Assembly: GCF_029906345.1 (NCBI RefSeq)
Contig: NZ_JARYGY010000002.1
Location: forward strand, 587,901-651,900
Source of the DNA: Aquimarina mycalae
GTDB lineage: Bacteria > Bacteroidota > Bacteroidia > Flavobacteriales > Flavobacteriaceae
Direction: 5' to 3'
DNA: 64,000 nt
Of this stretch, positions 44,194-60,627 are shown piece by piece (position 1 is the stretch's first letter; every line of letters starts with the position of its first letter). Both the position numbers and the translations under genes were made by a program. The notes under the pieces are model-generated. The model was not told the DNA's origin and searched no databases. It saw only the letters and a program-made list of their open reading frames with translations.

Positions 44194-44217
44194 AATTAAT
44201 TTATATTTAGTTAATAA

Positions 44218-44557: not shown

Positions 44558-44584
44558 AAAGGTATATAAATCTTTAACCTCTAC

Positions 44585-45064: not shown

Positions 45065-45085
45065 AATTACGTTTTTATGTTATAC

Positions 45086-45694
45086 TTATTTCTTTGGTTC
45101 AGCTTCAGAAAGTTTTTCTGGATACATTAATTGTATCTGCTTGATCTGATCTTTCAATCTATCCTTACTCCCTGAATAATTTACGTCCTTCAATTCAGAT
45201 TCCATTTGCGTAAATTTCTTTCCATACAAACGTTCTGATTCTCTATCACGTAGTTCAGTATACGCAGCAACCAGTTCATTCTGTACAGCTATATACGTAG
45301 CATAACTAGTTTCACGATTGTTACGTAAAGATATTACTGCTTTTTCTGGATTATCCGAAGAGCTAGGATCTCTTTCTCCTTTACAATAGCTACAAGCTTC
45401 ATCACCATTTCCTCCTCCATTATCTAAGAATGCAACTGCTGCAGCACGTAAATCTTTTAACTCCATAGGAGCTTCCTCAACCAAAAGGTCATTATTTTTG
45501 TTCAATTCTACCACAAAAATATTTTTTTGTTTAAGAATTGGAGGCTCTACCGTTTCATCTAACGGCGGTGGTAATTTACGACTAATACCTCTATCTGTAT
45601 CAATGGTTGTTGTAACCAGAAAGAATATAAGAAGTAAAAATGCAATATCCGCCATAGATCCTGCGTTCACCTCAGGTGCTGATCTTCTTGCCAT
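45086..45694 (-). CDS. ExbD/TolR-family protein with CxxC, pair 1
   Basis: 202 residues. ExbD start (SAPEVNAGSMADIAFLLLIFFLVTTTI) and a long periplasmic domain containing CSYCKG (near 92-97), repeated in the duplicate gene. The conserved Asp of MADIAF is present. Only 2 bases separate it from the membrane protein gene upstream, so it is transcribed with it and with the ExbB/TolQ gene. Confidence 0.9.
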   Translation of the reverse strand: MARRSAPEVNAGSMADIAFLLLIFFLVTTTIDTDRGISRKLPPPLDETVEPPILKQKNIFVVELNKNNDLLVEEAPMELKDLRAAAVAFLDNGGGNGDEACSYCKGERDPSSSDNPEKAVISLRNNRETSYATYIAVQNELVAAYTELRDRESERLYGKKFTQMESELKDVNYSGSKDRLKDQIKQIQLMYPEKLSEAEPKK

Positions 45695-45696
45695 AA

Positions 45697-46191
45697 TTAT
45701 TTACCTATTAATTTTTTAACTCCAGATGCTACCATAAGACCTACTGCCGCCGCTGCCAAAATGTAGAACGCATAAAGACCTGTTCCTACTAATTTGGATC
45801 CACCAGCAGATAGTACTTCACCATCTTTCATTTCAGTTTCCACACCGTTTGCCAATGCATAACCTATTCCTAGTACAACTAAAAAGGCAACGATACCAAT
45901 ACCTGCTTTCTTAAGACCTGCAGGGTTCTTGGCTAAGGCAGAAAATACTGCAAATAACGTAGCTATTATAATAACAACTAATATTATTAATGTCAGAGTA
46001 TACATCGGACTAACTAAAGAGGTAGCTTCAGCAAATGCTGATCCAGCTTCATCTTTAACCAAATCCTTTGCCTCAGTAATACCATAAGTATCCATAAGTG
46101 TATCAAAATTGTTACCCATCAAGAATAACATGATAGCACCTATTGCTCCTACCGCTAGTATCACATATGATAAAATTTTTGAAATTTTCAT
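45697..46191 (-). CDS. Four-helix membrane protein of the ExbB-ExbD operon
   Basis: 164 residues, about four membrane helices (near 7-25, 62-84, 94-112, 138-156). Helix 2 and 3 flank ALAKNPAGLKKAGIGI. Not homologous to ExbB by motif. It is placed between the ExbB/TolQ and ExbD genes, so it may be an accessory subunit of the motor. I know this type only as a hypothetical protein of flavobacteria. Confidence 0.7.
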   Translation of the reverse strand: MKISKILSYVILAVGAIGAIMLFLMGNNFDTLMDTYGITEAKDLVKDEAGSAFAEATSLVSPMYTLTLIILVVIIIATLFAVFSALAKNPAGLKKAGIGIVAFLVVLGIGYALANGVETEMKDGEVLSAGGSKLVGTGLYAFYILAAAAVGLMVASGVKKLIGK

Positions 46192-46299
46192 TTGACTAAT
46201 GTTTTATTTGAACCGCTATAGCGATTCCTATATTAAATAATAAATTGAATCGAAGAACATCTATATCCATATAGTTGTCCTAATAAAATCGAAACTTTA

Positions 46300-47091
46300 T
46301 TATTTCTTGTTTTTGTAAGCTACTAACATATCGATTAAAGTAATCGATGCATCTTCCATATCATTTACTATACTATCAATTTTAGCGATAATATAGTTAT
46401 AAAATACCTGAAGTATAATAGCTACAATAAGTCCAAATACTGTAGTAAGAAGTGCTACTTTAATACCACCTGCTACTAAAGAAGGTTGCATATCACCTGC
46501 AGCTTCAATTTTATCAAATGCATCAATCATACCGATTACAGTACCCATAAACCCAAGCATTGGAGCAAGAGCGATAAATAAAGATACCCAAGATACATTT
46601 TTCTCTAATTGTCCCATTTGAACACCACCATAAGCTACGACAGCTTTCTCTGCAGCGTCGATACTTTCGTCAGCCCTGTCAAGACCTTGGTAATAAATAG
46701 AAGCAACTGGTCCTTTTGTATTTCTACAAACTTCTTTTGCTGCTTCAACACCACCACTATTAAGAGCATCTTCAACATTTTGTTGTAGTTTCTTAGTATT
46801 AGTAGTAGACAGGTTTAAAAAGATAATTCTTTCAATTGCTATCGCAAGACCAAGAATCAAACATAAAAGAACGATCCCCATAAAGCTTGGACCTCCTTCT
46901 ATAAAACGTTTTTTAAGATTTTGGTGAAAGGATTCCTCCACTGCTGCAGGCTCTTCCGCCTGAATAGTTGTTGTTATTGGAGCAATTAATAATTGCACGT
47001 TTGCCGTTAACTGGGCTGGAGCAGTGGCTGCTTGCATATTTCCAAAAGCCATTACTGTTGCGATTGCCAGAATAGAAAATAGTCTTTTCAT
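46300..47091 (-). CDS. exbB: MotA/TolQ/ExbB proton channel protein
   Basis: 263 residues. Signal-like start, a periplasmic stretch, then the three-helix proton-channel core: GPSFMGIVLLCLILGLAIAIERII, LFIALAPMLGFMGTVIGMIDAFD and VALLTTVFGLIVAIILQVFYNYI. The family Thr/Pro/Gly pattern of the last two helices is intact. The long N-terminus is typical for Bacteroidota ExbB-like proteins. It starts the leftward operon with the four-helix protein and the ExbD pair. Confidence 0.93.
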   Translation of the reverse strand: MKRLFSILAIATVMAFGNMQAATAPAQLTANVQLLIAPITTTIQAEEPAAVEESFHQNLKKRFIEGGPSFMGIVLLCLILGLAIAIERIIFLNLSTTNTKKLQQNVEDALNSGGVEAAKEVCRNTKGPVASIYYQGLDRADESIDAAEKAVVAYGGVQMGQLEKNVSWVSLFIALAPMLGFMGTVIGMIDAFDKIEAAGDMQPSLVAGGIKVALLTTVFGLIVAIILQVFYNYIIAKIDSIVNDMEDASITLIDMLVAYKNKK

Positions 47092-47173
47092 TGCGCTGAT
47101 TCTTAATTTTAATTAGTTAAAGGGTTAAAGATAAAAAAATATTACAAAATCTATTAAAATTTTAATAATAATG

Positions 47174-47261
47174 CAGAGAGGAAGGGATTCGAACCCTCGA
47201 TACGCTTTTGACGTATACACACTTTCCAGGCGTGCGCCTTCGACCACTCGGCCACCTCTCT
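47174..47261 (-). tRNA. tRNA-Ser(GGA)
   Basis: 88-nt class II tRNA. The acceptor stem AGAGAGG/CCTCTCT pairs fully with G73; the D-arm, anticodon loop CTGGAAA with anticodon GGA, a long variable arm built on GTATACG/CGTATC, and the T-loop GGTTCGAATCC are all visible. CCA is not encoded. Confidence 0.95.
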
Positions 47262-47329
47262 ATCAATAAATTGCCAAAAATTGGTTGAGCAAATAACAAA
47301 AAAAATGTTAGCTACTAAAATTTAGGGCG

Positions 47330-48364
47330 TTAATTTTCTGACATTTCACCTCGTAAAGAAGTTTCGTATATGGTTTTGAGCACTTTAAGTGGTAAATTTT
47401 CTCCTAACAAATACATTAACTTAGCCAATGCGGCCTCTGTTGTGATATCTTTTCCTGATATAACACCTGCTTTTTTCAATGCTACACTGGTATCATATTT
47501 ACCCATTTCGACACTACCTCCTGCACATTGTGTTACATTAATAATAGGAATACCTTTTTTTATTTGCTCAGAAATTATGCTTAAAAACCATTTTTTAGTT
47601 GTCGTATTACCCGATCCATAGGTCTCAATAATTATACCTTTTATTTCATTTGAAGAGAAAATACTTCTTAAAATCACCTCATTAATACCAGGAAACATTT
47701 TAATAATGACAATATTATTATCAAAATGGGTATGATATACCATTTTTTTCCTTCGATTTATATTCCTTAAAAAAGAAGTATTTACTTTAAGATGCACTCC
47801 TGATTCTACAAGTGCTGGGTAATTAAGAGATTGGAACGCTTTAAAATGTTCTGCGTTAATCTTAGTGGTTCTATTAGCTCTCAATAGTTTATATTCGAAA
47901 TACAGTCCTACTTCTGTGATCACTGGCTTTCCTTTTTTTTGTAGTGCAGCAATTTGTACGGCTGTTATTAAATTTTCTTTAGCATCAGTTCTTAGATCTC
48001 CTATAGGTAATTGAGATCCTGTGAAAATGATCGGTTTACCTAAATTTTCAAACATAAAACTAATTGCAGAAGCAGTATAAGACATGGTATCACTTCCATG
48101 TAATATGACAAAACCATCATATTTTTCGTAATTATCATTGATAATATCTCCTAATTCTTTCCATCGCTCTACATCCATATCAGAAGAATCTATAGGTTCT
48201 GCAAAACTTATGGTTTCTATATTACAATCTAACTGTGTGAGCTCAGGAATTCTTAGCAACAATTCGTCAAAATCAAAAGCGATTAAAGCTCCTGTTTCAA
48301 AATTCTTGACCATACCAATGGTACCACCAGTATAAATCAATACTATGTTTGGTGAAGTATTCAT
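47330..48364 (-). CDS. ansA: Type I L-asparaginase
   Basis: 344 residues. Hydrolyses asparagine to aspartate and ammonia. Catalytic Thr in the N-terminal IVLIYTGGTIGM (Thr12) and the second active-site motif LHGSDTMSYTASAISF near 89-100, with the GSQLPIGDLRTDAKEN block. No signal peptide, so cytoplasmic. Leftward, between tRNA-Ser and tatD, separated from tatD by 59 bases. Confidence 0.95.
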   Translation of the reverse strand: MNTSPNIVLIYTGGTIGMVKNFETGALIAFDFDELLLRIPELTQLDCNIETISFAEPIDSSDMDVERWKELGDIINDNYEKYDGFVILHGSDTMSYTASAISFMFENLGKPIIFTGSQLPIGDLRTDAKENLITAVQIAALQKKGKPVITEVGLYFEYKLLRANRTTKINAEHFKAFQSLNYPALVESGVHLKVNTSFLRNINRRKKMVYHTHFDNNIVIIKMFPGINEVILRSIFSSNEIKGIIIETYGSGNTTTKKWFLSIISEQIKKGIPIINVTQCAGGSVEMGKYDTSVALKKAGVISGKDITTEAALAKLMYLLGENLPLKVLKTIYETSLRGEMSEN

Positions 48365-48423
48365 TTCAAAACATATATTTATTTGTCTCGCAAATGAACA
48401 AAATTTAAATTACATTCTGCAAT

Positions 48424-49212
48424 CTATATACCGAATATCTCTTTAGAGTTCTTAGTCGTGATTTCGGCAATTTCTTCAGGTGTTTTTTGATATATTTCTG
48501 ACAACTTTTCTACAACACGTATTAAATAAGAGCTTTCATTGCGTTTTCCTCTATATGGTGTAGGCGCTAAATAAGGAGCATCAGTTTCTAAAACGATATG
48601 ATCTAAGGAAAATTGATTCAAAAAAGTGTCTATTTTACCATTTTTAAAAGTAACTACTCCTCCAATACCTAGTTTCATATTATATCCTATTGCTCGATGT
48701 GCATCCTCTATAGTACCCGTAAAACAATGAAAAATCCCAAACAAATCTTCTCCTTTTTCGGATTCTAGTACTTCAAAAACTTCTTCAAAAGCATCTCTAC
48801 AATGAATAACTATAGGAAGTTTATACTTTTTAGCTAGTTTAATTTGATACCTAAACGCTTCTTGTTGTTGTTTTAGAAAAGTTTTATCCCAATATAAATC
48901 CACACCTATCTCTCCTACTGCATAGAATTTTTTATCAGAGGTTTTATCTAAACGTTTCTCCAGTTCTTCTTGCACATGTTGTAATTCTTCTTTGTAATTT
49001 TCTTTTACATGAGTAGGATGCAATCCCATCATCAGGAATACATGGTCAGGAAATTTTTTTTCGATGTCATACATTGATTTTGTATAAGCAGAATCAATTG
49101 CAGGAACGAAGAAACGTTCTACACCAACTGAAATTGCCCTTTGCATCATTTCGTCTTGATCCTCTGAAAAAGACTCACTATATATATGTGTATGCGTATC
49201 TGTAAGTATCAT
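48424..49212 (-). CDS. tatD: TatD-family metal-dependent hydrolase
   Basis: 262 residues from ATG 49212. The TatD DNase/hydrolase metal ligands are seen in order: DTHTHIYS (His-x-His), GLHPTH, GEIGVDLYW (Glu), IHCRDAFEE (His), FHCFTG (His) and ETDAPYLAP (Asp). A GTG nine codons earlier is possible but unnecessary. TATTTTTG on the minus strand at 49217-49224 is a -7-like element just 4 bases before the ATG, so a leaderless transcript is possible. Confidence 0.94.
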   Translation of the reverse strand: MILTDTHTHIYSESFSEDQDEMMQRAISVGVERFFVPAIDSAYTKSMYDIEKKFPDHVFLMMGLHPTHVKENYKEELQHVQEELEKRLDKTSDKKFYAVGEIGVDLYWDKTFLKQQQEAFRYQIKLAKKYKLPIVIHCRDAFEEVFEVLESEKGEDLFGIFHCFTGTIEDAHRAIGYNMKLGIGGVVTFKNGKIDTFLNQFSLDHIVLETDAPYLAPTPYRGKRNESSYLIRVVEKLSEIYQKTPEEIAEITTKNSKEIFGI

Positions 49213-49295
49213 GCGGCAAAAATAACCAAATTTCACTCACACAATTTATACTAAGAAGAAATATTATTTCTTAAAAATTAAATATCTCGAAATAC

Positions 49296-49595
49296 CTAAT
49301 TCACACTGATAATCCGTTCTAGAGGAATGATTGTAGATTGCTTAAGGATCACCGACTTATCAGTTATTCCCCAAATTGTAGTCTCTACTTTTTTGGATCC
49401 TTCATCATCAGCAAAAATGATTTTAACTTTAAGGTGTTCTAGGTTCCCTAAACTTAATCCTCTAACTAACTTACGATACCTATCTCGTTTATCTCTTTTG
49501 TTATTCAAAACTTCTTGATGCGGAAAGTGAAGAAATTTTATTTGCTCTTTTTCTATAACCTGTATATGATCATTAATCCCCATAACATATTTCAT
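49296..49595 (-). CDS. Conserved hypothetical small protein
   Basis: 99 residues. Basic, no signal or membrane helix; FLHFPHQEVLNNKRDKRDRYRKLVRGLSLGNLEHLKVKI is followed by a small beta region (EGSKKVETTIWGITDKSVILKQSTIIPLERIISV). The end looks like a compact Sm/SH3-like barrel, but I could not assign it. It lies beside tatD on the same strand. Confidence 0.65.
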   Translation of the reverse strand: MKYVMGINDHIQVIEKEQIKFLHFPHQEVLNNKRDKRDRYRKLVRGLSLGNLEHLKVKIIFADDEGSKKVETTIWGITDKSVILKQSTIIPLERIISVN

Positions 49596-49709
49596 TTAAA
49601 TTATTCAAAAGTTTAGTATAAGTAACTACCTAAAAATTACATAATACAACGCTTTTATTAAAGAAAATATTGTTAATTAACACATTAAGAATCAACACAT
49701 TCTAGGTAA

Positions 49710-50447
49710 TTATAGTTTTTTCATCAATTTTTGAGCCTGTTGATAATCTTCTGCTTCTTCAGGAAGTGTTTTCAGTATTTCAATACATCGTTCTTTATTA
49801 TTTTGTTTCAATTGATTTAATGCCTCAAACCAAATTGCCTTGTACTTATATCCGGAATTCCCTAACTGCAGTTTGCTAAAAGCCTGTGACGCTTGCTCAT
49901 ATTTATTTTGTTCTACTAATGTGATTCCATAGTAAAAAAGATATGTTGAGTTAGCATTATCGTTTTCTAACAATTTAAAAAGATATTGCTCTGCATCAGT
50001 ATAATTTTGAGAATTAAATGTTTCCTCCGCTTTTTTTACAAGTTCGGCTTCACCACTTCTCTCTGTAATAGACAATGCTGGTATAGAAACAAAATCATTA
50101 TAGGTTGCACTACTTTTAGTAAAGGTATATACTCCCAAAATAATCGCAATACTCGCCGCAACAGCATATCCCCAAGAAGGCATTCTAATAACTTTTGTTT
50201 GAGGTTTATCGGGTTTTTGTTCAAAAAACGTATCTCCAATCTCTTTTAAATTATTCTCTAAATCATATTGCGCTTGAGCTGAACTAAGATTAGAATCCAG
50301 ATAAGAATTCCATTCTTCATAAGCTTTAAACTCTTGTGCAGCATTTGTATCCTCACTCATCAATAGTGATAATGTTTCTTCTTCCTTTACCGAAAGTTCG
50401 CCGCTTATTTTTCTTTCAAAAAGCTCGTATTTTTCTTCTGGGGTCAT
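49710..50447 (-). CDS. Membrane-anchored TPR protein, anti-sigma-like
   Basis: 245 residues. N-terminal soluble part (FERKISGELSVKEEETLSLLMSED, zinc-less anti-sigma-like), membrane helix at about 89-108 (GYAVAASIAIILGVYTF), then TPR repeats in the C-terminal half (AEETFNSQNYTDAEQYLFKLLEND; QASQAFSKLQ). The gene starts inside the last codons of the sigma factor (ATGA overlap). The layout fits a regulator that holds an ECF sigma at the membrane; this is inference from position and topology. Confidence 0.78.
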   Translation of the reverse strand: MTPEEKYELFERKISGELSVKEEETLSLLMSEDTNAAQEFKAYEEWNSYLDSNLSSAQAQYDLENNLKEIGDTFFEQKPDKPQTKVIRMPSWGYAVAASIAIILGVYTFTKSSATYNDFVSIPALSITERSGEAELVKKAEETFNSQNYTDAEQYLFKLLENDNANSTYLFYYGITLVEQNKYEQASQAFSKLQLGNSGYKYKAIWFEALNQLKQNNKERCIEILKTLPEEAEDYQQAQKLMKKL

Positions 50448-51031
50448 AACAAGTTTTTTATTTGATTATACTTAGGAGAGCTTTGAACCATTTCGGTCAA
50501 TTGACCTATGCATAACGATTTTTTCTTCCGGACATAGCCATAAGACTGCCCTAATTTTGATGCTACTTCTTCCATAGATTTTATGGTAAAAGTTGCTTTT
50601 AACAATTCTTTACAAGCCTTACCTAATTGATCAAATATTTCAGCAAAAAGCTTATTTCTAGCTTCAAAAACCAAGGTTTCATCTGCATATCGTTCACTCT
50701 CATCATCAATAGATACGATTGCTTCATTAATTGTTACCTCTTTTGTAGCTGTTTTTTTTAATTCGTTAAGCCATTTACGTTTACACAGCAAAAAGAAATA
50801 TGCATCAAAAGGACAGGTAAGTGTTAGTTTTTTTTCTTTTGCTTGCTTATATATCGTAATTAATGTTTCCTGAATAATATCCTGAGCTCTAGATTCGTCT
50901 CCATTATTCTTCTTTATATACCCCACAACTTTGGGGGCAAATTTTTCATATACCTCTTTAAGAACAATAGTATCATTGGTTAGAAGTGCCTCAATATATT
51001 TCTGATCAGCATGCATTTTGGTATTTCCCAT
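50444..51031 (-). CDS. ECF-type sigma factor
   Basis: 195 residues. Sigma region 2 (about 20-95: EVYEKFAPKVVGYIKKNNGDESRAQDIIQETLITIYKQ) and region 4 (about 135-180: LLKATFTIKSMEEVASKLGQSYGYVRKKKSLCIGQL). No regions 1 or 3, so it is extracytoplasmic-function type. It overlaps the TPR anti-sigma-like gene downstream by 4 bases. A divergent operon with a lipoprotein, PKD, CHAT and retropepsin genes starts 132 bases away and is a likely target. Confidence 0.88.
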   Translation of the reverse strand: MGNTKMHADQKYIEALLTNDTIVLKEVYEKFAPKVVGYIKKNNGDESRAQDIIQETLITIYKQAKEKKLTLTCPFDAYFFLLCKRKWLNELKKTATKEVTINEAIVSIDDESERYADETLVFEARNKLFAEIFDQLGKACKELLKATFTIKSMEEVASKLGQSYGYVRKKKSLCIGQLTEMVQSSPKYNQIKNLL

Positions 51032-51162
51032 AAATAATTGGTCTGAGCAACTAAATTAAAAAAGTTTTAAGAAAAAGGGTAACAAAAAATTAGTGTTGTT
51101 GATATGAAGATGTAAACATTAAAAAATAGAAAGTCCACAACGGGCTATTAAAATTAAAAAAT

Positions 51163-52200
51163 ATGAAAACAAATAGTACAACAATTACATTACTGAATAA
51201 TAGTAGGAATGTAAAACAAACAATCACAAACTTTTTACTTTTAGGGTTAACCATACTGTTTTTAGGAAGCTGTAGCAGTAATGATGACAATGACATTATT
51301 ATTCAACAAATTCTGGATGGACTTGAATTAGAAGCTGAAATTACCGCTAATCGCGAAGAAGCTTTACAAACTTTTACATTAAATGGCGGAACAGGAGAAA
51401 TATATGGAGAAGATGGTACTATATTATATTTTCCTCCAGGAAGTATTGTAGATCAAAATGGAGATCCTGTTACAGGTGTTGTTACCATAGAATTAATTGA
51501 AATCTACAATAAAGCTAAAATGTTATTAACTAAGATGCCTACTAATGGGAAACGTCCTAATGGAGATATTGAAACACTAGTATCTGCAGGAGAGTTTTTT
51601 ATCAATGCAACGCAAAATGGTGAACAATTAGCAGTAGCAAATGGTTTCCAAATTTTTGCTCCTGCAGAAGAATTTGATGAAGATATGACAATTTTTAATG
51701 GTCAGGATAATGATTGTGATGGAGATGAAATGCAATGTGACATCGTATGGGAAGAAGACGAGCAAGGAGGCTTAGAACCTATGCAAAGAGAAGGTCCTAA
51801 TGGACAAGGAGTTAGTGGATATGGAGGTTTTTTAAGCAATTTTGGATGGACAAATTTAGATAGATGGTATAATTACGAAGGTCCAAAAACAATTGTATAT
51901 GCAGATGTTCCTGAAGGTTTTGACAATACGAACAGTAATGTATACATATCCTATGATGGAGAACCTACAGCTCTAGCCTTATTAGACATCTACAATCCTG
52001 ATACAGGTTTATTCTCAGAACACTATGGTTTAATTCCAATCGGACTAGAGGTACATTTCATTTTTGTATCCGTACAAGATGATCAGTATGTATATGCTAT
52101 TCAAGGAGCTACAATAGGTTTAGATCACACAGAGATAATTGGTGCTACTACCACAGGAACAGAAGCAGAATTAGTTGCATTGATCAACGGTCTCCCTTAA
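51163..52200 (+). CDS. Secreted lipoprotein beside the CHAT cassette
   Basis: 345 residues. Signal peptide with lipobox LFLGSC (Cys37). The mature part begins with an acidic SSNDDND linker and then beta-rich sequence (FTLNGGTGEIYGEDGTILYFPPGSIVDQNGDPVTGVVTIELIEIY) resembling carboxypeptidase-regulatory or Ig-like modules. No catalytic motif. It is divergent from the sigma/anti-sigma pair and followed by a strong terminator, so it may be transcribed apart from the PKD gene. Confidence 0.75.
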   Translation: MKTNSTTITLLNNSRNVKQTITNFLLLGLTILFLGSCSSNDDNDIIIQQILDGLELEAEITANREEALQTFTLNGGTGEIYGEDGTILYFPPGSIVDQNGDPVTGVVTIELIEIYNKAKMLLTKMPTNGKRPNGDIETLVSAGEFFINATQNGEQLAVANGFQIFAPAEEFDEDMTIFNGQDNDCDGDEMQCDIVWEEDEQGGLEPMQREGPNGQGVSGYGGFLSNFGWTNLDRWYNYEGPKTIVYADVPEGFDNTNSNVYISYDGEPTALALLDIYNPDTGLFSEHYGLIPIGLEVHFIFVSVQDDQYVYAIQGATIGLDHTEIIGATTTGTEAELVALINGLP

Positions 52201-52257
52201 AAAAATCTCACACTGGAGTATGCTTATTAAGTAATGGGGGTTACGGCAAATTTCAGA

Positions 52258-52290
52258 AAAATTCCGGAAGGGTTAACCTTCCGGAATTTT
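52258..52290 (+). terminator. Terminator of the lipoprotein gene
   Basis: AAAATTCCGGAAGG (52258-52271) and CCTTCCGGAATTTT (52277-52290) form a perfect 14-bp stem around GTTAA. T's after the stem are within the stem end (TTTT), so the terminator is moderately strong. Confidence 0.8.
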
Positions 52291-52360
52291 AATACATTAA
52301 AAGATGTAATTCTATCTGATTTAACTTTTTGTTTATCTTTATTAACACTAACAACAAATC

Positions 52361-54340
52361 ATGAACAGGTCTTCGGCTATTTTTATACTTATATGTTTTC
52401 CTTTTTTCTGCATTGGACAAATATTAACCAATGATACTATTCCAAGAATAGCACCAATATCATATGAAATTCAAGGCAATCGGGTAACATACGGAGCAGA
52501 AATGCCTCCTCTCAATCAAGTTGCAGGTGCTCCCAAAGCATTCTACACATACTATTGGGAACTTGGAGATGGAACCTATAGTTTTAAAGAAAAACCAACT
52601 CATACATATAAAAAAAATGGAACATTTGATGCTAAGTTATGGGCAACAAATAATTATGACAATGGAAAACCTCCCACAAGTAGACCTAAATCTGTTACCA
52701 TTAGCAATACAATAGACGAAGCATCTATACAATATAACTCTCCTTTTATTGAAGATGAGGATCTAATCCTAAAACGAAATCGTGAACCCATTCCAGATCA
52801 AGAAATGGTCTTTATTACAAGTTACAAAAACACTCACAACTATGTATCTAGTGGTAAATTGTATCTATTCTATAATGATCGTCAATTTAAGAATGATAAT
52901 TTCATCATTGAGGATACCCGACTCCATCACAATGAACGCATTGTTCCTTTGGATGACATTTCTTCAATACTTCCAGAAAATGATGATCATACATTGTTAG
53001 CTTCTGACAATCCTTCTTTTCTAAACAACAAAGTATTGTTTGTACAAGATACTACCAAACGAAAAAACTTTCCGCTAACACTTGAAGAATCAAAAGCACT
53101 ATACAGAAGTTATCAGATCATAGAATTCGACGACATGCAACCTGGTGAAGAACGTAATATATTCAGAACATTAAAGACTACTCCAGAAATGATTAAAGAC
53201 ACAAGTGCAATCGTCACTCTACGAAGTGTATATGTTCCTGATAATAATTATGATAATCATACCGTAAAAGATACTGAGATGGAAATTGTAACTTCTCATG
53301 ATCCTAATAAAATGTCTTCTAATGGATGGTTAATGAATTATAGATTGGTTAGATTTAAACGATTAAAATTTAAAGTTCGTTTTCAAAATAACGGAGAAGG
53401 TCCTGCTAATACTATTAAATTAGAAGTAGATACCCCAGAAATGTTTGATAAATCCACTTTAAAAATAGATGGTATGTATCCAGAATGTCCAATCTGTCCT
53501 AAAGAGAGAGAAGTAAACTATAGTTGCCTGGACACTATACTTCAAAAAGATAAAATCATCTTTCAATTCAATAGAATTTACCTTCCAGGAAGTGAACAGA
53601 AAAATGTTGAAGAGATTGACTCCACCAAAGGTTTTGTAAAATATTCTATGAAATTTGGTAGAAAATTTCACAAAAAAAAGACGCGAAGCAAGACTGCTAT
53701 TTATTTTGATAAAAACGACCCTATTATCACCAACTATGCCACTACGAGATTCCTGCCTGGAATTTCTATTGGAGCCAAGGCTGGATATATTTCGGCCCCA
53801 GAATTAGACAATCAAAAAGAATATTTTATAGGAGCTACCCTATCACCTTTTAAGTCGTATCGAGGATATTATCAGGCAGAACTATTTTTCTCTTCTTCTT
53901 CATTTGATGAAGTAAGAAATTTTGAAACACGCGTTATAGGTCCTAATGGAGCAGAAGATTTGACACGTTTTTCTGAAGTAAACCAATATGATAATATAAC
54001 GATATATGCTGTTCCTGGATCATTTAGATATAATTTCAATAATTATGTAGCTTTTGGCGCTGGATTGCAAGTAAAGTTAGATCTAACCAGCACAAACAAT
54101 CAGGAAACTACAGGGCAAGGTTTTTTTGTAGATATTAATGGAGAAGAAATCCCCAATCCAGATAGAAATACTTTTTCGAATCAAGAAATAGACGATAGTT
54201 TTACAAATTTGCAAACTGGAGTTTTTGTCGGAATGAATATAGGAGCTGTTAGGATCGGACCAAGTATTGGTGTGAGATATGTGTACAATTTTGATGCTCC
54301 CAATTCTCAAATTCAGTTCTATGGGATTTGGAAATTTTAG
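52361..54340 (+). CDS. PKD-domain protein with C-terminal barrel-like region
   Basis: 659 residues. Signal peptide (MNRSSAIFILICFPFFCIGQ), then a PKD domain (about 50-110) with WELGDGTYSFKEKPTHTYKKNGTF. A large middle region is unassigned, and the last 200 or so residues (GISIGAKAGYIS..., GAGLQVKLDL, GMNIGAVRIGPSIGVRYVY) alternate like outer-membrane strands. The next gene starts inside its 3' end. It probably exposes a PKD adhesion module from the outer membrane. Confidence 0.78.
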   Translation: MNRSSAIFILICFPFFCIGQILTNDTIPRIAPISYEIQGNRVTYGAEMPPLNQVAGAPKAFYTYYWELGDGTYSFKEKPTHTYKKNGTFDAKLWATNNYDNGKPPTSRPKSVTISNTIDEASIQYNSPFIEDEDLILKRNREPIPDQEMVFITSYKNTHNYVSSGKLYLFYNDRQFKNDNFIIEDTRLHHNERIVPLDDISSILPENDDHTLLASDNPSFLNNKVLFVQDTTKRKNFPLTLEESKALYRSYQIIEFDDMQPGEERNIFRTLKTTPEMIKDTSAIVTLRSVYVPDNNYDNHTVKDTEMEIVTSHDPNKMSSNGWLMNYRLVRFKRLKFKVRFQNNGEGPANTIKLEVDTPEMFDKSTLKIDGMYPECPICPKEREVNYSCLDTILQKDKIIFQFNRIYLPGSEQKNVEEIDSTKGFVKYSMKFGRKFHKKKTRSKTAIYFDKNDPIITNYATTRFLPGISIGAKAGYISAPELDNQKEYFIGATLSPFKSYRGYYQAELFFSSSSFDEVRNFETRVIGPNGAEDLTRFSEVNQYDNITIYAVPGSFRYNFNNYVAFGAGLQVKLDLTSTNNQETTGQGFFVDINGEEIPNPDRNTFSNQEIDDSFTNLQTGVFVGMNIGAVRIGPSIGVRYVYNFDAPNSQIQFYGIWKF

Positions 54341-56930
54341 GATACTATTTTTGGTTTTTCTATTTCTCTGTATAGGGAATAAGCCTCTTCAAGGGCAGCA
54401 AAAAGTTAACACCGCAAAACTCATATACAATCAATTAGATACTTTCTTAGAAAAACCCTCAAAACCTAAATTACATCAACTAAGCAACATAATAGCATCT
54501 GAAGAAAAACATCTTCTAACCAAAGAAGATCAATTAGCCTTTGTTATTGCACAGGCTAATATGGGATATTACTACAATTTTTTTGGAAACGTTTCTAACG
54601 CGATTTTACATTATGAGAACGCATGGAAAACTTTTAATAATAATGCACTAGACAACTACGATATTATTGAAAATTGTCTACAACCTCTTGGTAATCTATA
54701 CCTAAAAATTGGAGATCTTCAGAGAGCAACAATTACCATCACCAATTACTTATATCAAGCAGAACAATCACAAAACACAACTAAAATACTTTCAGCTGTA
54801 ACTAATCTATCCATCGTATACAACAATCAAAGTAACTATCAAAAAGCAATTGAAATTCTGAAAAAAGGAGAAGTTATAGCTCCTAAAAACATAAACATAT
54901 TAACAAACTTAGCGACAAACTATTTAGATGCTAAAGACATCAAAAAAGCTGAGATCTATGCTCTTAAAGTAACTTCAATAGATTCAACTCAGGTAAATGT
55001 ATATCAAATCTTAGCTGCAATTGCATTAGAACAAGAAAACTTACCAAAAGCCCAGAATTATTTTCTGAAATCAAAATCTAAATTACTTGAAAAACAGCAT
55101 ACCTCAGTTAGAGATCTTGCTAAACTACAATTAGCATACCTTGACATTCTTCTTTATAAAAGAGCATTTTTCGAAGCATTAAATCATCTAAAAGAAATTT
55201 ATACAATTCTTATTCCAGAATACACTTTAGAAAAAGACGTTCCAAAAAAAGAAACCCTTATCGCAGACAGAATAGTGCTTAAAGCGTTAGATATTCAAGC
55301 ATATATCTATCAACAAATAGATAAACCTACTATAGCTATTGAGGCATATGAAGCAGCTTTTGAGGTTAATTCAAAATTAAATCTAGCGTATCCATTGCAG
55401 GATACTAAGATTATTCAACATAGTCAAAACCGAAATCGTACTGAGACGTTTATTGACCTATTGTACTCTTTATATAAGACAACAAAACATCAAGAGTATG
55501 TTGTAAAAGCATTCCAAGCTGCAGAAAATTCTAAAGCGCCATTTGTTAATGAAGCCTTAGTATCAAAGCACCTACTATCACAATACAAAAACGACTCATT
55601 AGTATCTAAAATCAATATCCTAAACAACTCACTTGCCCAGTACGACACCTATATTCTAAAAGAAAAACAAAAAGGCGAGCAAGCCAATATTCCTCAAATT
55701 CAAAAATGGAACTCCTCTAGAAGCACACAAGCCATCGAACACTCAGAGGTCACTAAACAGCTTCAGAAAAAATATCCAAATCTTCTTTTTAAACAAGGAA
55801 AAATTTCGATTGTATCGCTTCAAAAAAAGCTAAGACAAGATGGTCTTACATTGATTGAATATTTTTTCGGAAAAGAAACGATTTATCAATTTAAAATCGA
55901 TGCTGATTCAATAGAAATAACAGACATAAACAACACTACAGATTTTAAAAATACTATTCAAGGTTATATACGTTATTTTGACAACGCTTCTATGATCATT
56001 AATAATGTTGAAGATTTTTCTAACAGTAGTTTCGAGCTTTATAACGCATTAAATATTCCTGCAACAAAAAGCATACTAATCATCCCTGATGGACTTCTTA
56101 ATTTTATCCCTTTTGAAACATTACTCACTAAAAAAAGCAATTCTTTACGTTTCCAAAATATGCCTTTCTTACTTACATCTACTATCACCAGCTATGAAAT
56201 TTCTGCAAGTAAGTATCTCCGATCAGTGAATACGAATACAGACAGTGCAACAAGAACTATTTTGGGTGTCTTTCCAGTTTTTGAAAATACAGCCTTGGCA
56301 CTTCCATTCTCTTTAGATGAACAAAACTTACTACAACAAAAGTTTGATGGTAGATTCTTAGAAAAAGAAAAAGCTACCTATATACAATTCATAGATGAAG
56401 TAGAAAACCACGACATTCTGCATCTATCTACACATGCAGAGGCTGGTGGATTTTCAAGGCCAGCTTCTATTAAATTTAGAGATCAGGATGTTTTGGTAAA
56501 TCAATTATACGGACTACAATTAGAAGCGGATCTAGTTGTCCTAAGTGCATGTGAAACGGGTATTGGCACTATAGCAAAAGGAGAAGGCCCATTAAGCATT
56601 GCAAGAGGTTTTCAATACGCTGGAGTTCCTAATGTACTATTTTCATTATGGAAAGTAAATGATAAAACTACTTCTGAATTAATGCAATACTTTTATAAAA
56701 ATCTTCATCTTTCTAATTCAAAAGCACACGCATTATATCAAGGAAAACTAAATTATCTCGCTTCCGAAAAAATTTCTAATACCCAAAAATCCCCTTATTA
56801 TTGGGCAGCATTCGTATATTATGGTTCTTATCAAACTCCATCAGTATCTAATTATAACTGGATCCTTATTATCGGTATTTTCTTATTAATTATACTATTT
56901 TTGTTTGTGATTCGACAAAAAACAAAATGA
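54321..56930 (+). CDS. TPR-CHAT protease
   Basis: 869 residues from ATG 54321 (a GTG at 54279 is less likely). Signal peptide or anchor at 1-26, TPR-like repeats at about 60-330, then a CHAT caspase-like domain at about 560-840 with catalytic His705 in HLSTHAEAGG and Cys744 in VVLSACETGIG, and a C-terminal membrane helix (NWILIIGIFLLIILFLFVI). The CHAT domain should therefore face the periplasm. Its first 20 bases overlap the PKD gene and its last 4 the retropepsin gene, so the three are coupled. Confidence 0.88.
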   Translation: MGFGNFRILFLVFLFLCIGNKPLQGQQKVNTAKLIYNQLDTFLEKPSKPKLHQLSNIIASEEKHLLTKEDQLAFVIAQANMGYYYNFFGNVSNAILHYENAWKTFNNNALDNYDIIENCLQPLGNLYLKIGDLQRATITITNYLYQAEQSQNTTKILSAVTNLSIVYNNQSNYQKAIEILKKGEVIAPKNINILTNLATNYLDAKDIKKAEIYALKVTSIDSTQVNVYQILAAIALEQENLPKAQNYFLKSKSKLLEKQHTSVRDLAKLQLAYLDILLYKRAFFEALNHLKEIYTILIPEYTLEKDVPKKETLIADRIVLKALDIQAYIYQQIDKPTIAIEAYEAAFEVNSKLNLAYPLQDTKIIQHSQNRNRTETFIDLLYSLYKTTKHQEYVVKAFQAAENSKAPFVNEALVSKHLLSQYKNDSLVSKINILNNSLAQYDTYILKEKQKGEQANIPQIQKWNSSRSTQAIEHSEVTKQLQKKYPNLLFKQGKISIVSLQKKLRQDGLTLIEYFFGKETIYQFKIDADSIEITDINNTTDFKNTIQGYIRYFDNASMIINNVEDFSNSSFELYNALNIPATKSILIIPDGLLNFIPFETLLTKKSNSLRFQNMPFLLTSTITSYEISASKYLRSVNTNTDSATRTILGVFPVFENTALALPFSLDEQNLLQQKFDGRFLEKEKATYIQFIDEVENHDILHLSTHAEAGGFSRPASIKFRDQDVLVNQLYGLQLEADLVVLSACETGIGTIAKGEGPLSIARGFQYAGVPNVLFSLWKVNDKTTSELMQYFYKNLHLSNSKAHALYQGKLNYLASEKISNTQKSPYYWAAFVYYGSYQTPSVSNYNWILIIGIFLLIILFLFVIRQKTK

Positions 56931-57364
56931 CAACACTTCGCCAGTTCCTTATCAGTAAAGAATACCATCGTATTAGACTTATTTATACAAAAACAAACCA
57001 TTTTGAAGTAAAGGCAATACTTAATGGTGTAACGGGTAATTTTATTGTAGATACAGGAGCATCCAATTCATGCGTTGGTTTTGATGCTGTAGAAAAATTT
57101 CACCTTTTTGCACAAGATAGTGATGTAAAAGCTGCTGGAGCTGGAGCAACCGATATGCTTACTCAACTTTCTAAAAAAAATATGTTACAATTAGGCAAAT
57201 GGTCAAAAAATAATATCTCGCTCATTTTATTTGATCTTACTCATGTAAATACTGCCTTAATTGCACATCAAGCCGAACCCGTAGACGGGATTATTGGTGC
57301 TGATGTATTGAAAAAAGGAAAAGCTGTTATTGATTATGAACGAAAATGTCTTTATCTTAAATAA
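56927..57364 (+). CDS. Retropepsin-like aspartic protease
   Basis: 145 residues, one aspartic-protease lobe. The active-site motif is DTGASNSCVG (Asp42-Thr43-Gly44), with the hydrophobic-hydrophobic-Gly at GIIGADVLKKG near 120-130. Such single-lobe retropepsins work as dimers. It overlaps the CHAT gene by 4 bases (ATGA), a tight coupling of two different protease types. No signal peptide is seen, so the sites of the two enzymes may differ. Confidence 0.88.
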   Translation: MTTLRQFLISKEYHRIRLIYTKTNHFEVKAILNGVTGNFIVDTGASNSCVGFDAVEKFHLFAQDSDVKAAGAGATDMLTQLSKKNMLQLGKWSKNNISLILFDLTHVNTALIAHQAEPVDGIIGADVLKKGKAVIDYERKCLYLK

Positions 57365-57627
57365 CTGATTTTAAAAATCACATTTCTACACCGCAATAAA
57401 TCTACCTCTAAACAGGAAACATCCCCAATCATCACAATAGTTCCCAAAACACATAGCGGGGAATTTACACTGTAAATCAACGAATTAACTTACGTTTTAT
57501 CTGTAAAAAACAAGAAGAAAAACCATAAATATTAAAAATAATTCTTAGTTTTAAGGAAATATTAAGATTTTAAAATAACCTCTTATAAACCTAATAAGCC
57601 TATTGTAAAACTCTACATACCCTTTTT

Positions 57628-58212
57628 ATGAATCGAAGAAATTTTCTAACATCAGGAACTTTAACTGCTGGTGCACTATCTTTAGTCCCTACCTCAATTT
57701 TTGCAAATAACAACACTATTTCAATTTTTTCCATAGGTAAAGGATTTAACAGCATATCCGATCAGATCCAACATCTTTCAGTAAAATTCTTATCGAAAAA
57801 TGTATTAAAAGCGCATACAAAACTCCTCATAAAACTTGATGAGAAAGGATATAACTATAGCAATTCTGATATCGTTCAATTAAGCAATAATTGTTATGCC
57901 ATTCCTTTAAGCAAAAAACCATTAATCGGATTTGATTCTAAAGAACTTGCTCTATTAATAGAACAAAACGGAGTATATAAACACTACATTCTTAATGAAC
58001 CCACATCCATAGCATTTAATTCTTTGATTGAGAATTTTAGCAGAAACTCTGAAGCTCAAAGTTTAAATTTAGATACACTTAACTTCATTTCCCCAAACGA
58101 AGTGATTGGAACCTCTTTTGGAAAAGAAAACACATTTACATATAAAAATGTAAGCGGGAATACTATAACACTAAAAGGTTCTTCAAAGAAACAGGTAGCT
58201 ATTATTAGCTAA
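57628..58212 (+). CDS. Tat-like exported hypothetical protein
   Basis: 194 residues. The N-terminus MNRRNFLTSGTLTAGALSL resembles a twin-arginine signal (RRNFL) followed by a hydrophobic segment ending ANN. The mature part is small and beta-rich. Not recognised. It is the first gene of a rightward group with the formyltransferase and the two tail-collar genes, and could be co-expressed with them. Confidence 0.65.
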   Translation: MNRRNFLTSGTLTAGALSLVPTSIFANNNTISIFSIGKGFNSISDQIQHLSVKFLSKNVLKAHTKLLIKLDEKGYNYSNSDIVQLSNNCYAIPLSKKPLIGFDSKELALLIEQNGVYKHYILNEPTSIAFNSLIENFSRNSEAQSLNLDTLNFISPNEVIGTSFGKENTFTYKNVSGNTITLKGSSKKQVAIIS

Positions 58213-58361
58213 CATTTTGGTCAAAATTCAGGTAGTTATACGTATTGATTTATTTTAATACTCTGTTTAGTTTTGATACATAGGGATATCAGAAAAATCA
58301 TCTGAATACTTTAATCAAGAAAACTAGATACATCTCTAGTGTATTATAAAACCGTGAATTC

Positions 58362-59321
58362 ATGAAAATAATACTTATTGGAAGCTTTCCTGTCTGTCTT
58401 TCTGTATACAATAGCTTATCGAAAGATAATCATCTTGATGCCGTATGTTTTCAGGAATCCGAAGTCCCTAATCCAAAAAAAAACTTCTGGTTAACTTCTA
58501 TCCAGAAAGAAGGTTTAGATACTTTTCTGATAAATAAACAAAATATCTATACAGAATTCAAAACTTGGTTAGAAGATAAAGCTCCTGATTTAGTGTTGGT
58601 TTGTGGTTTTTCCATTAAAATCCCCAAAGCAGTATTAGGGATACCAACACATGGTTTTCTAAACGTTCATTTTGGAAAATTACCAGAAAACAGAGGTCCA
58701 GACCCTTTATTTTGGTCCATTAAACAAGGGAAAAAACAAAGTGCTATTACTATTCATCAAATGGATGAAAATTGGGATACTGGTAACATTTTAATAGAAC
58801 AACCAGTTCCTATTATACCAGGAGAAACACTTGGAATGGCTAATTCTAAGATGAGCTATATGCTTGGCGGATTAACTCAAAAAGCATTAGAATTAATAGT
58901 AAATCCTGAAAACCTAAAACCTCAATCAGACAAAAACACCCATTATAATCAAAAACCAACAGAAAAGGACACAATTATACATTGGGAAACACAAACCGCT
59001 GATGAAATAGAACAGTTAATTAACGCTTGTAATCCTAAATACGGCGGAGCCACCACCTATTACCAAGGATCACCTATTAAAATAATTGAAGTTTCGCCAG
59101 TAGACACTCAACCTCTATTGGGCAAAACTGCTGGAGAGATCATACATGCACATCCACAAGAAGGATTATATGTGTATTGCAAATACGGTAAATTATTAAA
59201 AATAAATACAATCAGTTCTGACGCCGGTGTTTTATCTGGAATCAAATATGTACATCTGGGTGTAAGACAAGGACATTGTTTTACCACAAGCTTACAAAAG
59301 AAACAACGCGCAGCCATATAA
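58362..59321 (+). CDS. Formyltransferase-family protein
   Basis: 319 residues. The fold of methionyl-tRNA or sugar formyltransferases: N98 and H100 in FLNVHFGKLPENRG, and Asp of the active site in DENWDTGNIL near 145-153. The C-terminal part (about 200-315; KDTIIHWETQTADEIEQLINACNP) resembles the OB-like C-terminal domain of Fmt. It is not the housekeeping fmt by context, since it sits with tail-collar and T9SS genes; a modification of a surface compound is inferred. Confidence 0.78.
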   Translation: MKIILIGSFPVCLSVYNSLSKDNHLDAVCFQESEVPNPKKNFWLTSIQKEGLDTFLINKQNIYTEFKTWLEDKAPDLVLVCGFSIKIPKAVLGIPTHGFLNVHFGKLPENRGPDPLFWSIKQGKKQSAITIHQMDENWDTGNILIEQPVPIIPGETLGMANSKMSYMLGGLTQKALELIVNPENLKPQSDKNTHYNQKPTEKDTIIHWETQTADEIEQLINACNPKYGGATTYYQGSPIKIIEVSPVDTQPLLGKTAGEIIHAHPQEGLYVYCKYGKLLKINTISSDAGVLSGIKYVHLGVRQGHCFTTSLQKKQRAAI

Positions 59322-59372
59322 ATGGCTGCAATTACTAAATAACTAATTTATTAATCTTAAAATCAATTCAAT

Positions 59373-59897
59373 ATGGAAGGAACATTGGCAGAAATCAGAC
59401 TGTTTGGAGGCAATTTTGCTCCTAGAAATTGGGCCCTTTGTGAAGGACAATTATTAGCAATTAATTCCAATCAAGCTTTATTTTCTTTGTTAGGGACTAT
59501 TTATGGAGGAGATGGTAGAACTACGTTTGCTTTACCAGATCTAAGAGGTCGTGTACCTATTGGTCCTGGACATGGACCTGGATTATCCTCTTATAAACAA
59601 GGACAAAGAGGAGGAGTAGAAACTGTTATTCTTAATACAACTCAGATTCCTAATCACACTCATACTGTACAAGCAAATTCAGCTTCTCCTGTTGGGAGAG
59701 GCGAAGGTTCTTCTACCGCTGCTGGAACATATTGGGGAGATGGAGACAGTTATGCTTCGGCAAAAAACAACACTATGGCAGCAGATGCAATTACGGTAGG
59801 TAATACAGGAGGTAATTTAAGTCATGAAAACAGACAACCTTATTTATCTACATATTACATCATTTGCTTACAAGGTGTTTTCCCTTCTAGAAGCTAA
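59373..59897 (+). CDS. Phage tail-collar domain protein, copy 1
   Basis: 174 residues. Tail-collar (MdpB-like) fold: LAEIRLFGGNFAPRNWALCEGQLLAI, then GGDGRTTFALPDLRGRVPIGPG, and a C-terminal YIICLQGVFPSRS. Such proteins often form secreted or cell-surface trimers, or are phage tail leftovers; no other phage genes are here. Its second half is nearly identical to that of the next gene (from KQGQRGGVETV), while the first half differs more. Confidence 0.88.
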   Translation: MEGTLAEIRLFGGNFAPRNWALCEGQLLAINSNQALFSLLGTIYGGDGRTTFALPDLRGRVPIGPGHGPGLSSYKQGQRGGVETVILNTTQIPNHTHTVQANSASPVGRGEGSSTAAGTYWGDGDSYASAKNNTMAADAITVGNTGGNLSHENRQPYLSTYYIICLQGVFPSRS

Positions 59898-59940
59898 AAG
59901 ATTTCTATTTTAATTATTCATCTAAAATTCAAAAAATATT

Positions 59941-60465
59941 ATGGAACCAACTATAGGAGAAATTAGAATGTTCGCTGGTAATTTTGCCCCAAGAGCATGG
60001 GCATTATGCGAAGGTCAATTATTACCAATTAATCAAAATGATGCATTATTCTCAATACTAGGAACTACATATGGCGGGGATGGCAGAACCACTTTTGCCT
60101 TACCTGATTTAAGAGGTCGCGTTCCAGTAAGCCCAGGAAATGGTCCAGGATTATCTACTTATAAACAAGGACAAAGAGGAGGAGTAGAAACTGTTACTCT
60201 TAATACAACTCAAATTCCAAGTCATACCCATGTTGTACAAGCAAATTCAGCTTCTCCTGTTGGAAGAGGTGAAGGTTCTTCTACAGCTGCGGGAACATAT
60301 TGGGGTGATGGTGATAGTTACGCCTCAGCAAAAAACAACACTATGGCTGCGGACGCAATTGCGATAGGAAATACAGGAGGTAATTTAAGTCACGAAAATA
60401 GACAACCTTTTCTATCCATTTATTATATAATATGCTTACAAGGAGTATACCCTTCTAGAAGTTAA
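59941..60465 (+). CDS. Phage tail-collar domain protein, copy 2
   Basis: 174 residues, tandem paralogue of the gene before it, 43 bases downstream. Same motifs: IGEIRMFAGNFAPRAWALCEGQLLPI, GGDGRTTFALPDLRGRVPVSPG and the shared C-terminal half with ANSASPVGRGEGSSTAAGTY. The near-identity of the 3' halves against the divergence of the 5' halves suggests gene conversion. Probably cell-surface proteins rather than phage parts. Confidence 0.88.
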   Translation: MEPTIGEIRMFAGNFAPRAWALCEGQLLPINQNDALFSILGTTYGGDGRTTFALPDLRGRVPVSPGNGPGLSTYKQGQRGGVETVTLNTTQIPSHTHVVQANSASPVGRGEGSSTAAGTYWGDGDSYASAKNNTMAADAIAIGNTGGNLSHENRQPFLSIYYIICLQGVYPSRS

Positions 60466-60518
60466 CAATTTTAAAAAAGTTCTATACAGAACACCTTTAT
60501 TCAAAATAAAGTTATAAC

Positions 60519-60571
60519 CATATAAATTTAGGTAATTTGGAGTGTTCAACTTTTTTACCTAGATTTATATG
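60519..60571 (+). other. Long hairpin before the T9SS gene
   Basis: CATATAAATtTAGGTAA (60519-60535) pairs with TTACCTAgATTTATATG (60555-60571) over 17 bp with one U-G pair. Short stems GTTCT/AGAAC (60479-60492) precede it. No T-run follows, so it may act as a leader structure of the next gene or a bidirectional 3' end. Confidence 0.5.
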
Positions 60572-60627
60572 AATAAGGGTTGTAATAACAAAAACTTATC
60601 AAATATATTGATAGCAATTCTTTAATT

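Follow-up and report, generated by a model that had tools for sequence, protein, structure and literature searches.

Our study describes a gene cassette of Aquimarina mycalae (Flavobacteriaceae, Bacteroidota; assembly GCF_029906345.1), located at positions 49710 to 57364 of a 64,000-nucleotide stretch of contig NZ_JARYGY010000002.1; this whole stretch is called the window, and all positions refer to it unless a locus is named. This genome holds nine such paralogous sigma-switch cassettes, the present one included, in which an extracytoplasmic function (ECF) sigma factor and its putative transmembrane anti-sigma factor accompany a TPR-CHAT protein, a caspase-like protease. We are very confident that these three proteins form a functional circuit that is inherited and has diversified as a unit. 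By analogy with two described proteins, Csx29 and DdvA, the TPR-CHAT protease might directly cut its cognate anti-sigma factor and so control its own ECF sigma factor, a step for which we judge the balance of probability to be even. More broadly, many Bacteroidota carry this set, sometimes in several copies; in it the anti-sigma factor, the probably envelope-located CHAT protease and the sigma factor have co-evolved, so the protease may help to activate the sigma factor.

Nine sigma factor/CHAT cassettes in one genome

On the minus strand, the sigma factor (50444..51031), recognised by Sigma70_r2 of Pfam (E 2.9e-7) and TIGR02937 of NCBIfam (E 7.4e-15), overlaps by 4 nucleotides the co-directional open reading frame (ORF) of the anti-sigma factor (49710..50447), whose N-terminal helical domain and single predicted transmembrane helix are followed by a predicted periplasmic TPR region (TPR_19 of Pfam). 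Rightward, on the plus strand, lie the genes of a lipoprotein, a PKD protein, the TPR-CHAT protease (54321..56930; Pfam CHAT at E 2.6e-44, with TPRs) and a retropepsin-like protein. This is the layout described in an earlier account of the same DNA made from its letters and ORFs (the sequence-only reading), whose gene order and overlaps of 4-20 bases among the last three genes are confirmed by the ORF coordinates: 20 nucleotides between the PKD and CHAT genes (taking 54321 as the start) and 4 between the CHAT and retropepsin genes, with a gap of 160 nucleotides between the lipoprotein and PKD genes. The TPR-CHAT ORF opens at 54279; the ATG at 54321 is the likelier start, leaving an N-terminal hydrophobic signal.

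The source genome encodes 11 CHAT proteins and contains 47 sigma70_r2 matches, and 10 of the 11 CHAT genes lie at most 7 kb from a sigma70_r2 gene (p 1e-8 in a binomial test that assumes uniform placement, or 8e-8 when counted as 9 of 10 loci). At all nine sigma-CHAT loci the sigma gene is followed by a gene of one protein family, the putative anti-sigma factor. A search of the genome with this family identified nine full-length members, all of them at sigma-CHAT loci, after which the next match falls from E 1e-70 to 5e-8 and covers the first part only. The sigma/anti-sigma pair is divergent from the CHAT gene at eight loci and convergent at one (L118). At another of these cassettes (L120) the CHAT gene appears as two ORFs in different frames, 5406-6398 and 6503-8809 of that locus, and may be split or a pseudogene.

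Co-occurrence and co-diversification across genomes

Among 91 genomes, considering the matches listed and thresholds of E <= 1e-10 for CHAT and a best E <= 1e-20 for a strong anti-sigma match, 47 carry both, 2 carry CHAT only (G035, G036), 1 carries the anti-sigma only (G085) and 41 carry neither (Fisher 2.7e-22, a value inflated by shared ancestry, as the genomes are not independent). At most 30 anti-sigma candidates were scored per genome, so a strong one could have escaped in the two CHAT-only genomes. Strong anti-sigma matches occur in only 3 of 58 genomes without a CHAT match, and two of these three (G371, G309) lie at the site between the retropepsin gene and tatD, with an anti-sigma without a sigma factor in one and a truncated sigma factor fused to the anti-sigma in the other; we read both as remnants after deletion of the cassette, the retropepsin gene having stayed.

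Loci from named genomes (named loci) show the same association, with both sigma and anti-sigma genes in 52 of 79; they are not a random sample, because most are orthologues of the window cassette. Restricted to named loci of at least 19 kb, both genes are present in 49 of 60, that is, in 43 of the 46 long loci carrying the DUF7849 gene (the PKD protein of the window; barrel-type loci below) and in 6 of the 14 long others. The sequence-only reading had proposed conservation of the whole set as its check, and this holds in part: sigma, anti-sigma, DUF7849 and CHAT genes are kept together, and the retropepsin gene does not belong to the kept set and also exists without it.

Over 76 cassettes in which each gene is present once, the correlation of pairwise protein distances is r 0.95 for CHAT and anti-sigma, 0.92 for CHAT and sigma, and 0.92 for sigma and anti-sigma. 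In the eight single-CHAT cassettes of the source genome the corresponding values are 0.89 (p 0.0002), 0.83 and 0.75 (p 0.0006 each), a correlation that is not explained by species history because all eight sit in one genome; CHAT/anti-sigma is the highest of the three pairs, by point value alone. The proposal of the sequence-only reading that an ECF sigma switch and a CHAT protease are coupled is supported by proximity in 10 of 11 cases, co-occurrence and co-diversification. We also observed a Tenacibaculum contig (L295, 1283-15618) with six consecutive CHAT-domain matches and no sigma or anti-sigma gene in the stretch, and a locus (G026:C1:4218837-4220814) in which in-frame stops disrupt the DUF7849 gene and the genes of the sigma factor, the anti-sigma factor and the CHAT protein are kept.

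Catalytic pair, topology and fold of the TPR-CHAT protein

The residues that correspond by homology to the catalytic histidine and cysteine of CHAT proteases, His705 (codon 56433..56435, plus strand) and Cys744 (56550..56552, plus strand), are intact in 39 of 39 aligned proteins from barrel-type loci and likewise in the genome's own CHAT proteins (11 of 11); loss of this pair in relatives had been named beforehand as a ground for giving up the proposal. Hydropathy places a transmembrane segment at the C-terminus of each of the genome's 11 CHAT proteins; in the window protein it spans residues 845-868 (56853..56924, plus strand; hydropathy 3.07) and is a helix in the AlphaFold2 model. Together with the signal-like N-terminus of the window protein, this predicts that the protease probably faces the periplasm, in agreement with the sequence-only reading.

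The AlphaFold2 model of the CHAT protein (predicted local distance difference test, pLDDT, 89.1; predicted template modelling score 0.86) has Csx29 as its nearest solved fold (Foldseek, 8eey_B, E 4e-18; VIA-align, 7y83_D, Z 30.6, 570 aligned residues, root-mean-square deviation 7.8), with separase next. Its match to DdvA (8rot_A) has E 4.8e-11 in Foldseek and Z 20.5 in VIA-align, with 561 aligned residues and a root-mean-square deviation of 12.1. It is important to note that TPR repeats alone reach high scores (Rap proteins, Z 21 in VIA-align) and dominate whole-protein sequence searches; for this reason the CHAT domain was tested apart. A CHAT-domain profile searched against 177,635 distinct PDB sequences matched only Csx29 (best E 2.8e-6) and DdvA (0.0015) at E <= 1, and a profile of the shorter CHAT core placed DdvA first (4.1e-4), with the histidine and cysteine aligned, followed by three further matches at E 0.46-0.95. 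When a single CHAT-domain sequence was searched against the PDB, the matches to Csx29 were no stronger than E 0.16. The matches listed in the fold and profile searches do not include the SAVED-CHAT structure 8tl0.

The anti-sigma factor and a candidate cleavage site

The sigma factor and its partner have the features of an ECF sigma factor paired with a transmembrane anti-sigma factor, namely a sigma domain and a co-directional, overlapping partner gene whose product has N-terminal helices and one transmembrane segment. We assign to the partner the role of a transmembrane anti-sigma factor that would restrain the sigma factor on the basis of gene context, topology and weak model matches: NCBIfam anti-sigma models are reached by 2 of 11 family members (best E 4.9e-6), a weak assignment by sequence, and apart from these matches, searches with the N-terminal domain gave TPR matches. 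The AlphaFold2 model (pLDDT 89.8) has four N-terminal helices, a transmembrane helix at residues 91-110 (50118..50177, minus strand), a coil at 120-133 and TPR helices at 134-244. A 19-residue hydropathy test for transmembrane segments is passed by 10 of 11 family members, the window's own protein being the exception.

In this coil, between the transmembrane helix and the TPR region, lies Arg130 (codon 50058..50060, minus strand), which occupies the third most conserved column of the anti-sigma alignment: arginine is present in 83 of 89 anti-sigma factors from stretches with a CHAT gene, lysine in 2, and another residue or a gap in 4. Its conservation and position make it a candidate cut site, the putative P1 residue of a first (site-1) cleavage.

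The divergent promoter region

The region between the divergent genes carries GGGTAACAAAA, with a -35-like GGTAAC element (51078..51083, plus strand) that reads towards the CHAT operon. Of 28 orthologous divergent regions, 27 contain GGTAAC, as do 6 of 8 divergent regions of the source genome, with 7 copies versus 0.24 expected in shuffles; among 101 other intergenic segments that reach 70 bp or more, 9 contain it. It is also found in 42 of 52 named loci, mostly orthologues and not independent. A longer promoter pattern gave only 6 sites in the genome, with no regulon. The element gives modest support to autoregulation of the sigma factor.

Comparison with described systems

Articles are cited here by PMC identifier, from excerpts of their text. 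In the type III-E CRISPR system (Craspase/CASP), Csx29 cleaves a sigma inhibitor (PMC10028731, which also mentions DegS). The Csx29-Csx30-CASP-sigma locus resembles the cassette in combining a TPR-CHAT protease with histidine and cysteine, an ECF sigma factor and a sigma inhibitor, and differs in that the window protease has a signal-like N-terminus and a transmembrane anchor and the inhibitor is a transmembrane TPR protein. No ORF resembling Cas7-11 (gRAMP) was found by eye among the 21 of at least 80 amino acids at 44000-62000, and a PADLOC-DB scan of 16 proteins from that interval yielded CRISPR matches no stronger than E 0.0095. The second parallel is DdvA, the anti-sigma factor of the ECF sigma factor DdvS in Myxococcus xanthus (PMC4374960). 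DdvA (PDB 8rot, 8rw5) is a transmembrane anti-sigma factor whose TPR-CHAT part matches the window protein, histidine and cysteine included; it is a fused protein, whereas the anti-sigma and TPR-CHAT genes are separate at the nine loci of the source genome, and none of 167 CHAT and 90 anti-sigma ORFs from five locus sets combined both profiles in one ORF. The cassette also resembles RseA-DegS-RseP in its single-pass transmembrane anti-sigma factor, encoded by a gene overlapping that of an ECF sigma factor, and in a predicted first-cut site just outside the membrane. DegS is a serine protease, whereas the candidate first protease here is a caspase-like CHAT enzyme.

Three further systems share parts of this arrangement. 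ECF54 loci have CHAT-domain proteins in their genetic context, and ECF54 is described as acting without an anti-sigma factor (PMC8999054); compared by description, our loci differ, as an anti-sigma gene accompanies the sigma gene at all nine loci of the genome and at most others read. In the type III CRISPR system CalpL/CalpT/CalpS, a dedicated protease cuts an anti-sigma factor that holds an ECF sigma factor (PMC11417357), and the difference lies in the protease, which is of the Lon type, has a SAVED sensor and responds to a CRISPR second messenger. The Dma/Das dual membrane-spanning anti-sigma factors of Bacteroidota combine an ECF sigma factor, envelope-spanning control and an outer-membrane barrel (PMC13088901), and CHAT is not mentioned in the excerpts of that account; in those proteins the anti-sigma factor itself ends in the barrel, whereas here the anti-sigma factor ends in TPRs and the DUF7849 protein has a separate gene. 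The excerpts of a Flavobacterium psychrophilum transcriptome paper contain no link to CHAT, and a conflict-systems paper searched by term mentions neither CHAT nor sigma factors. The statement of the sequence-only reading that it could not match the cassette to a described system therefore stands for the Bacteroidota unit itself, of which searches of open-licence PMC articles showed no description among the titles listed, the closest statement being that on CHAT proteins at ECF54 loci (its sigma group may already stand in the 2021 ECF classification), and it does not stand for function, where Csx29/Csx30/CASP-sigma and DdvA/DdvS are close parallels.

Proposed mechanism and alternatives

The following scheme would account for these observations. 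An envelope signal would reach the TPR domain of the CHAT protein, in the window copy perhaps through the lipoprotein and the PKD/DUF7849 protein; the CHAT protease would then cut the anti-sigma factor in the linker between its transmembrane helix and TPR region, with Arg130 as the candidate site, as DegS does for RseA; further proteolysis would free the sigma factor, which would drive transcription of both the sigma gene and the CHAT operon from promoters of the GGTAAC type. The signal, the cut, its site and the later steps are the parts of this scheme that we infer. The two strongest arguments for direct contact between the CHAT protein and the anti-sigma factor are the natural fusion in DdvA and the fact that the substrate of Csx29 is a sigma inhibitor. 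The suggestion of the sequence-only reading that the anti-sigma factor may be the CHAT substrate counts as supported by these precedents and by the linker arginine, the cut itself remaining a proposal.

Several observations weigh against this scheme. In the genome's own set, one CHAT gene (L119) has neither sigma nor anti-sigma, and an N-terminal hydrophobic segment is present in only 3 of the 11 CHAT proteins, the window's included, with start codons uncertain. The association is less clear in random samples of 20 stretches each, drawn from the best matches listed: the genus sample (19 Aquimarina and one other genus) came from 130 rows, with own-genome and some tandem or near-identical rows left out, the class sample from 38 rows and the phylum sample from 104. 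Both sigma and anti-sigma were present in only 12 of 20 genus stretches, 12 of 20 class stretches (11 of 19 places, as L184 and L187 overlap) and 2 of 20 phylum stretches, one of these as an adjacent pair; three more phylum stretches had the anti-sigma without the sigma gene and one the reverse, some being cut by contig ends. The pair is absent from 11 of the 60 long named loci, including 8 of the 14 that have no DUF7849 gene, and three loci, from an uncultured Flavobacteriaceae and two Lutibacter (L253, L258, L264), have DUF7849 and CHAT genes without sigma or anti-sigma. With respect to the cut site, the conservation of Arg130 could also reflect a structural role, 6 of the 89 anti-sigma factors lack the arginine (2 of these have lysine), and Csx29 cuts Csx30 at M427-K428, not after an arginine. 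The CHAT-less control consists of three anti-sigma factors only, of which the two cassette remnants keep Arg130 and an orphan (L341) lacks it. The GGTAAC motif was chosen by eye after inspection of the sequences, and in the random samples it is weak (4 of 12 in the genus, 3 of 12 in the class and 0 of 1 in the phylum sample, against a background of 113 of 1540 random 150-mers). We have rejected it as a proof on both grounds.

The strongest alternative, which we consider unlikely but serious, makes the CHAT protease an output of the switch: the TPR anti-sigma factor would itself sense the envelope, a general protease would cut it, and the sigma factor would switch on the divergent operon, whose CHAT protease would cut the PKD/DUF7849 protein, RHS-like proteins or toxins as an executioner or quality-control protease. 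The divergent layout agrees with this, with a -35-like GTAAC directed towards the CHAT gene in 7 of 8 divergent regions of the genome, as do the differing accessory genes of the paralogous cassettes and the three loci that keep DUF7849 and CHAT genes without a sigma factor. An output role is less compatible with the conserved linker arginine, with the precedents of Csx29 and DdvA, with the two remnant genomes in which the sigma gene is lost or truncated, and with the distances in the genome's own cassettes, where CHAT tracks the anti-sigma factor closer than the sigma factor does, by point value alone. An improbable alternative is that the TPR-CHAT protein binds without cutting, as a sensor that docks on the anti-sigma factor and alters its hold on the sigma factor, like a split DdvA. 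DdvA does carry its TPR-CHAT part inside the anti-sigma factor itself, and the substrate of the window CHAT protein is not known; pure docking is disfavoured because it would not require the invariant His and Cys.

If the CHAT protease does cut the anti-sigma factor, a caspase-like enzyme would have to be counted among the types of protease by which envelope-stress signalling is initiated. To our knowledge, few substrates of CHAT proteases are known outside CRISPR, and here the substrate can be guessed, with anti-sigma factor, protease and promoter side by side at nine loci of one genome. Such a function may help to explain why some Aquimarina genomes have up to 16 CHAT genes among the matches listed, and it would suggest an origin for the sigma-controlling arm of Craspase. 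We advance only tentatively, and lean somewhat against, the wider possibility that Bacteroidota possess a family of caspase-like site-1 proteases that are periplasmic and CRISPR-free, each with its own transmembrane TPR anti-sigma factor and ECF sigma factor, with nine parallel, co-diversified circuits running in a single cell here; in that case an old partnership between TPR-CHAT proteins and ECF sigma factors would have given rise to the sigma arm of Craspase as a cytoplasmic offshoot and to that of DdvA as a fused one.

The retropepsin gene as a resident neighbour

The retropepsin-like gene downstream of the CHAT gene (56927..57364, plus strand; Asp_protease_2 of Pfam, E 7e-11) is a resident core gene whose site is often shared by the cassette. 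This follows from its presence in 141 of 149 family genomes (one per genus) versus 20 of 149 for the DUF7849 gene, from its persistence without the cassette and from its absence from some cassettes. The two genes adjoin in 16 of those 20 genomes, judging from the listed coordinates, and lie on different contigs in G437, G453, G468 and G473, at contig ends in G437 and G468. Of 43 Aquimarina retropepsin stretches, one per genome, 27 contain the cassette and the other 16 do not. Sigma, anti-sigma, DUF7849 and CHAT genes are found together in 26 of the 27, the last (L108) being cut by a contig end; none of the four is found at the 16 cassette-less loci, in all of which tatD lies 75-1235 nucleotides from the retropepsin gene. 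Conversely, the cassette occurs elsewhere without a retropepsin gene in the stretch read in G011 (one of those 16) and in G067 (another family). Although the retropepsin gene follows the CHAT gene in most Flavobacterium-type loci and occurs at 38 of the 46 long named loci of the barrel type, the other 8 lack it, and loci of this type without it include those of Sinomicrobium, Ulvibacter, Psychroflexus, Parachryseolinea, a Saprospiraceae genome and Paradesertivirga. The protein has no hydrophobic signal or transmembrane segment in a simple hydropathy test and is therefore probably cytoplasmic.

The sequence-only reading had called the region a two-protease cassette, a description that this distribution contradicts, and we have rejected the retropepsin as a part of the system, since it is not gained and lost together with the CHAT cassette. 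A cascade in which CHAT protease and retropepsin act in series, suggested by the 4-nucleotide overlap of their genes in the window and by their frequent adjacency, is highly improbable given a core gene that is found with and without the cassette, that is still there at the two cassette remnants and whose product is probably in a different compartment.

Accessory and neighbouring genes

The first gene of the CHAT operon encodes a lipoprotein (51163..52200, plus strand) with a lipobox-like LFLGSC after a hydrophobic segment and no Pfam or NCBIfam match at E 0.01; homologues are present in 41 of the 46 long barrel-type loci and in 24 of the 27 Aquimarina cassettes. It is followed by the protein with PKD, DUF7619 and DUF7849 domains (52361..54340, plus strand; Pfam, DUF7849 at E 2.5e-65), which has a signal-like N-terminus with a hydrophobic segment at residues 5-23 and, from its C-terminal sequence, is a probable outer-membrane beta-barrel.

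Other cassettes of the genome have different accessory genes. Small lipoproteins of 131-193 amino acids, weakly alike, with a common lipobox cysteine and a loose 'IR' and 'E.W' pattern, are encoded directly before TPR-CHAT genes (L121 8826-9377 and 12259-12840; L122 10711-11106; L124 5444-5995; L125 5649-6131; L126 10680-11102) and are possible dedicated signal or inhibitor proteins. At four of the nine sigma-CHAT loci a YD/RHS-like protein of 1055-1744 amino acids is encoded near the CHAT gene, at a distance of up to about 4 kb (L121 2299-5841, minus strand; L122 1454-6688, minus; L123 12549-15716, plus; L125 11792-15160, plus), a proximity that may be due to chance; Pfam, applied to three of them, gave RHS_repeat at E 0.008 for one only.

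A known anti-phage defence system was rejected, as the sigma, anti-sigma, lipoprotein, DUF7849 and CHAT proteins gave only two weak matches against PADLOC 2.0.0 (E 0.0095 and 0.0073). Two adjoining genes do match such models, the TatD-like gene at 48424-49236 (QatD, 7e-18) and the retropepsin gene (candidate model PDC-M08B, 6.6e-11), and both seem to be ordinary genes that such models pick up, the retropepsin gene being a core gene. At 43567-47091, two ExbD-like pairs lie beside an ExbB-like gene that matches ZorA/ExbB models, these labels being based on ORF reading. Downstream, two tandem, nearly identical proteins of 174 amino acids (59373-59897 and 59941-60465) presumably resemble phage tail-collar/microcystin-dependent proteins, and 60628-63249 encodes a secreted protein of 873 amino acids with four near-identical repeats of about 100 amino acids, recognised by eye, and a C-terminal end that we take to be type-IX-sorting-like.

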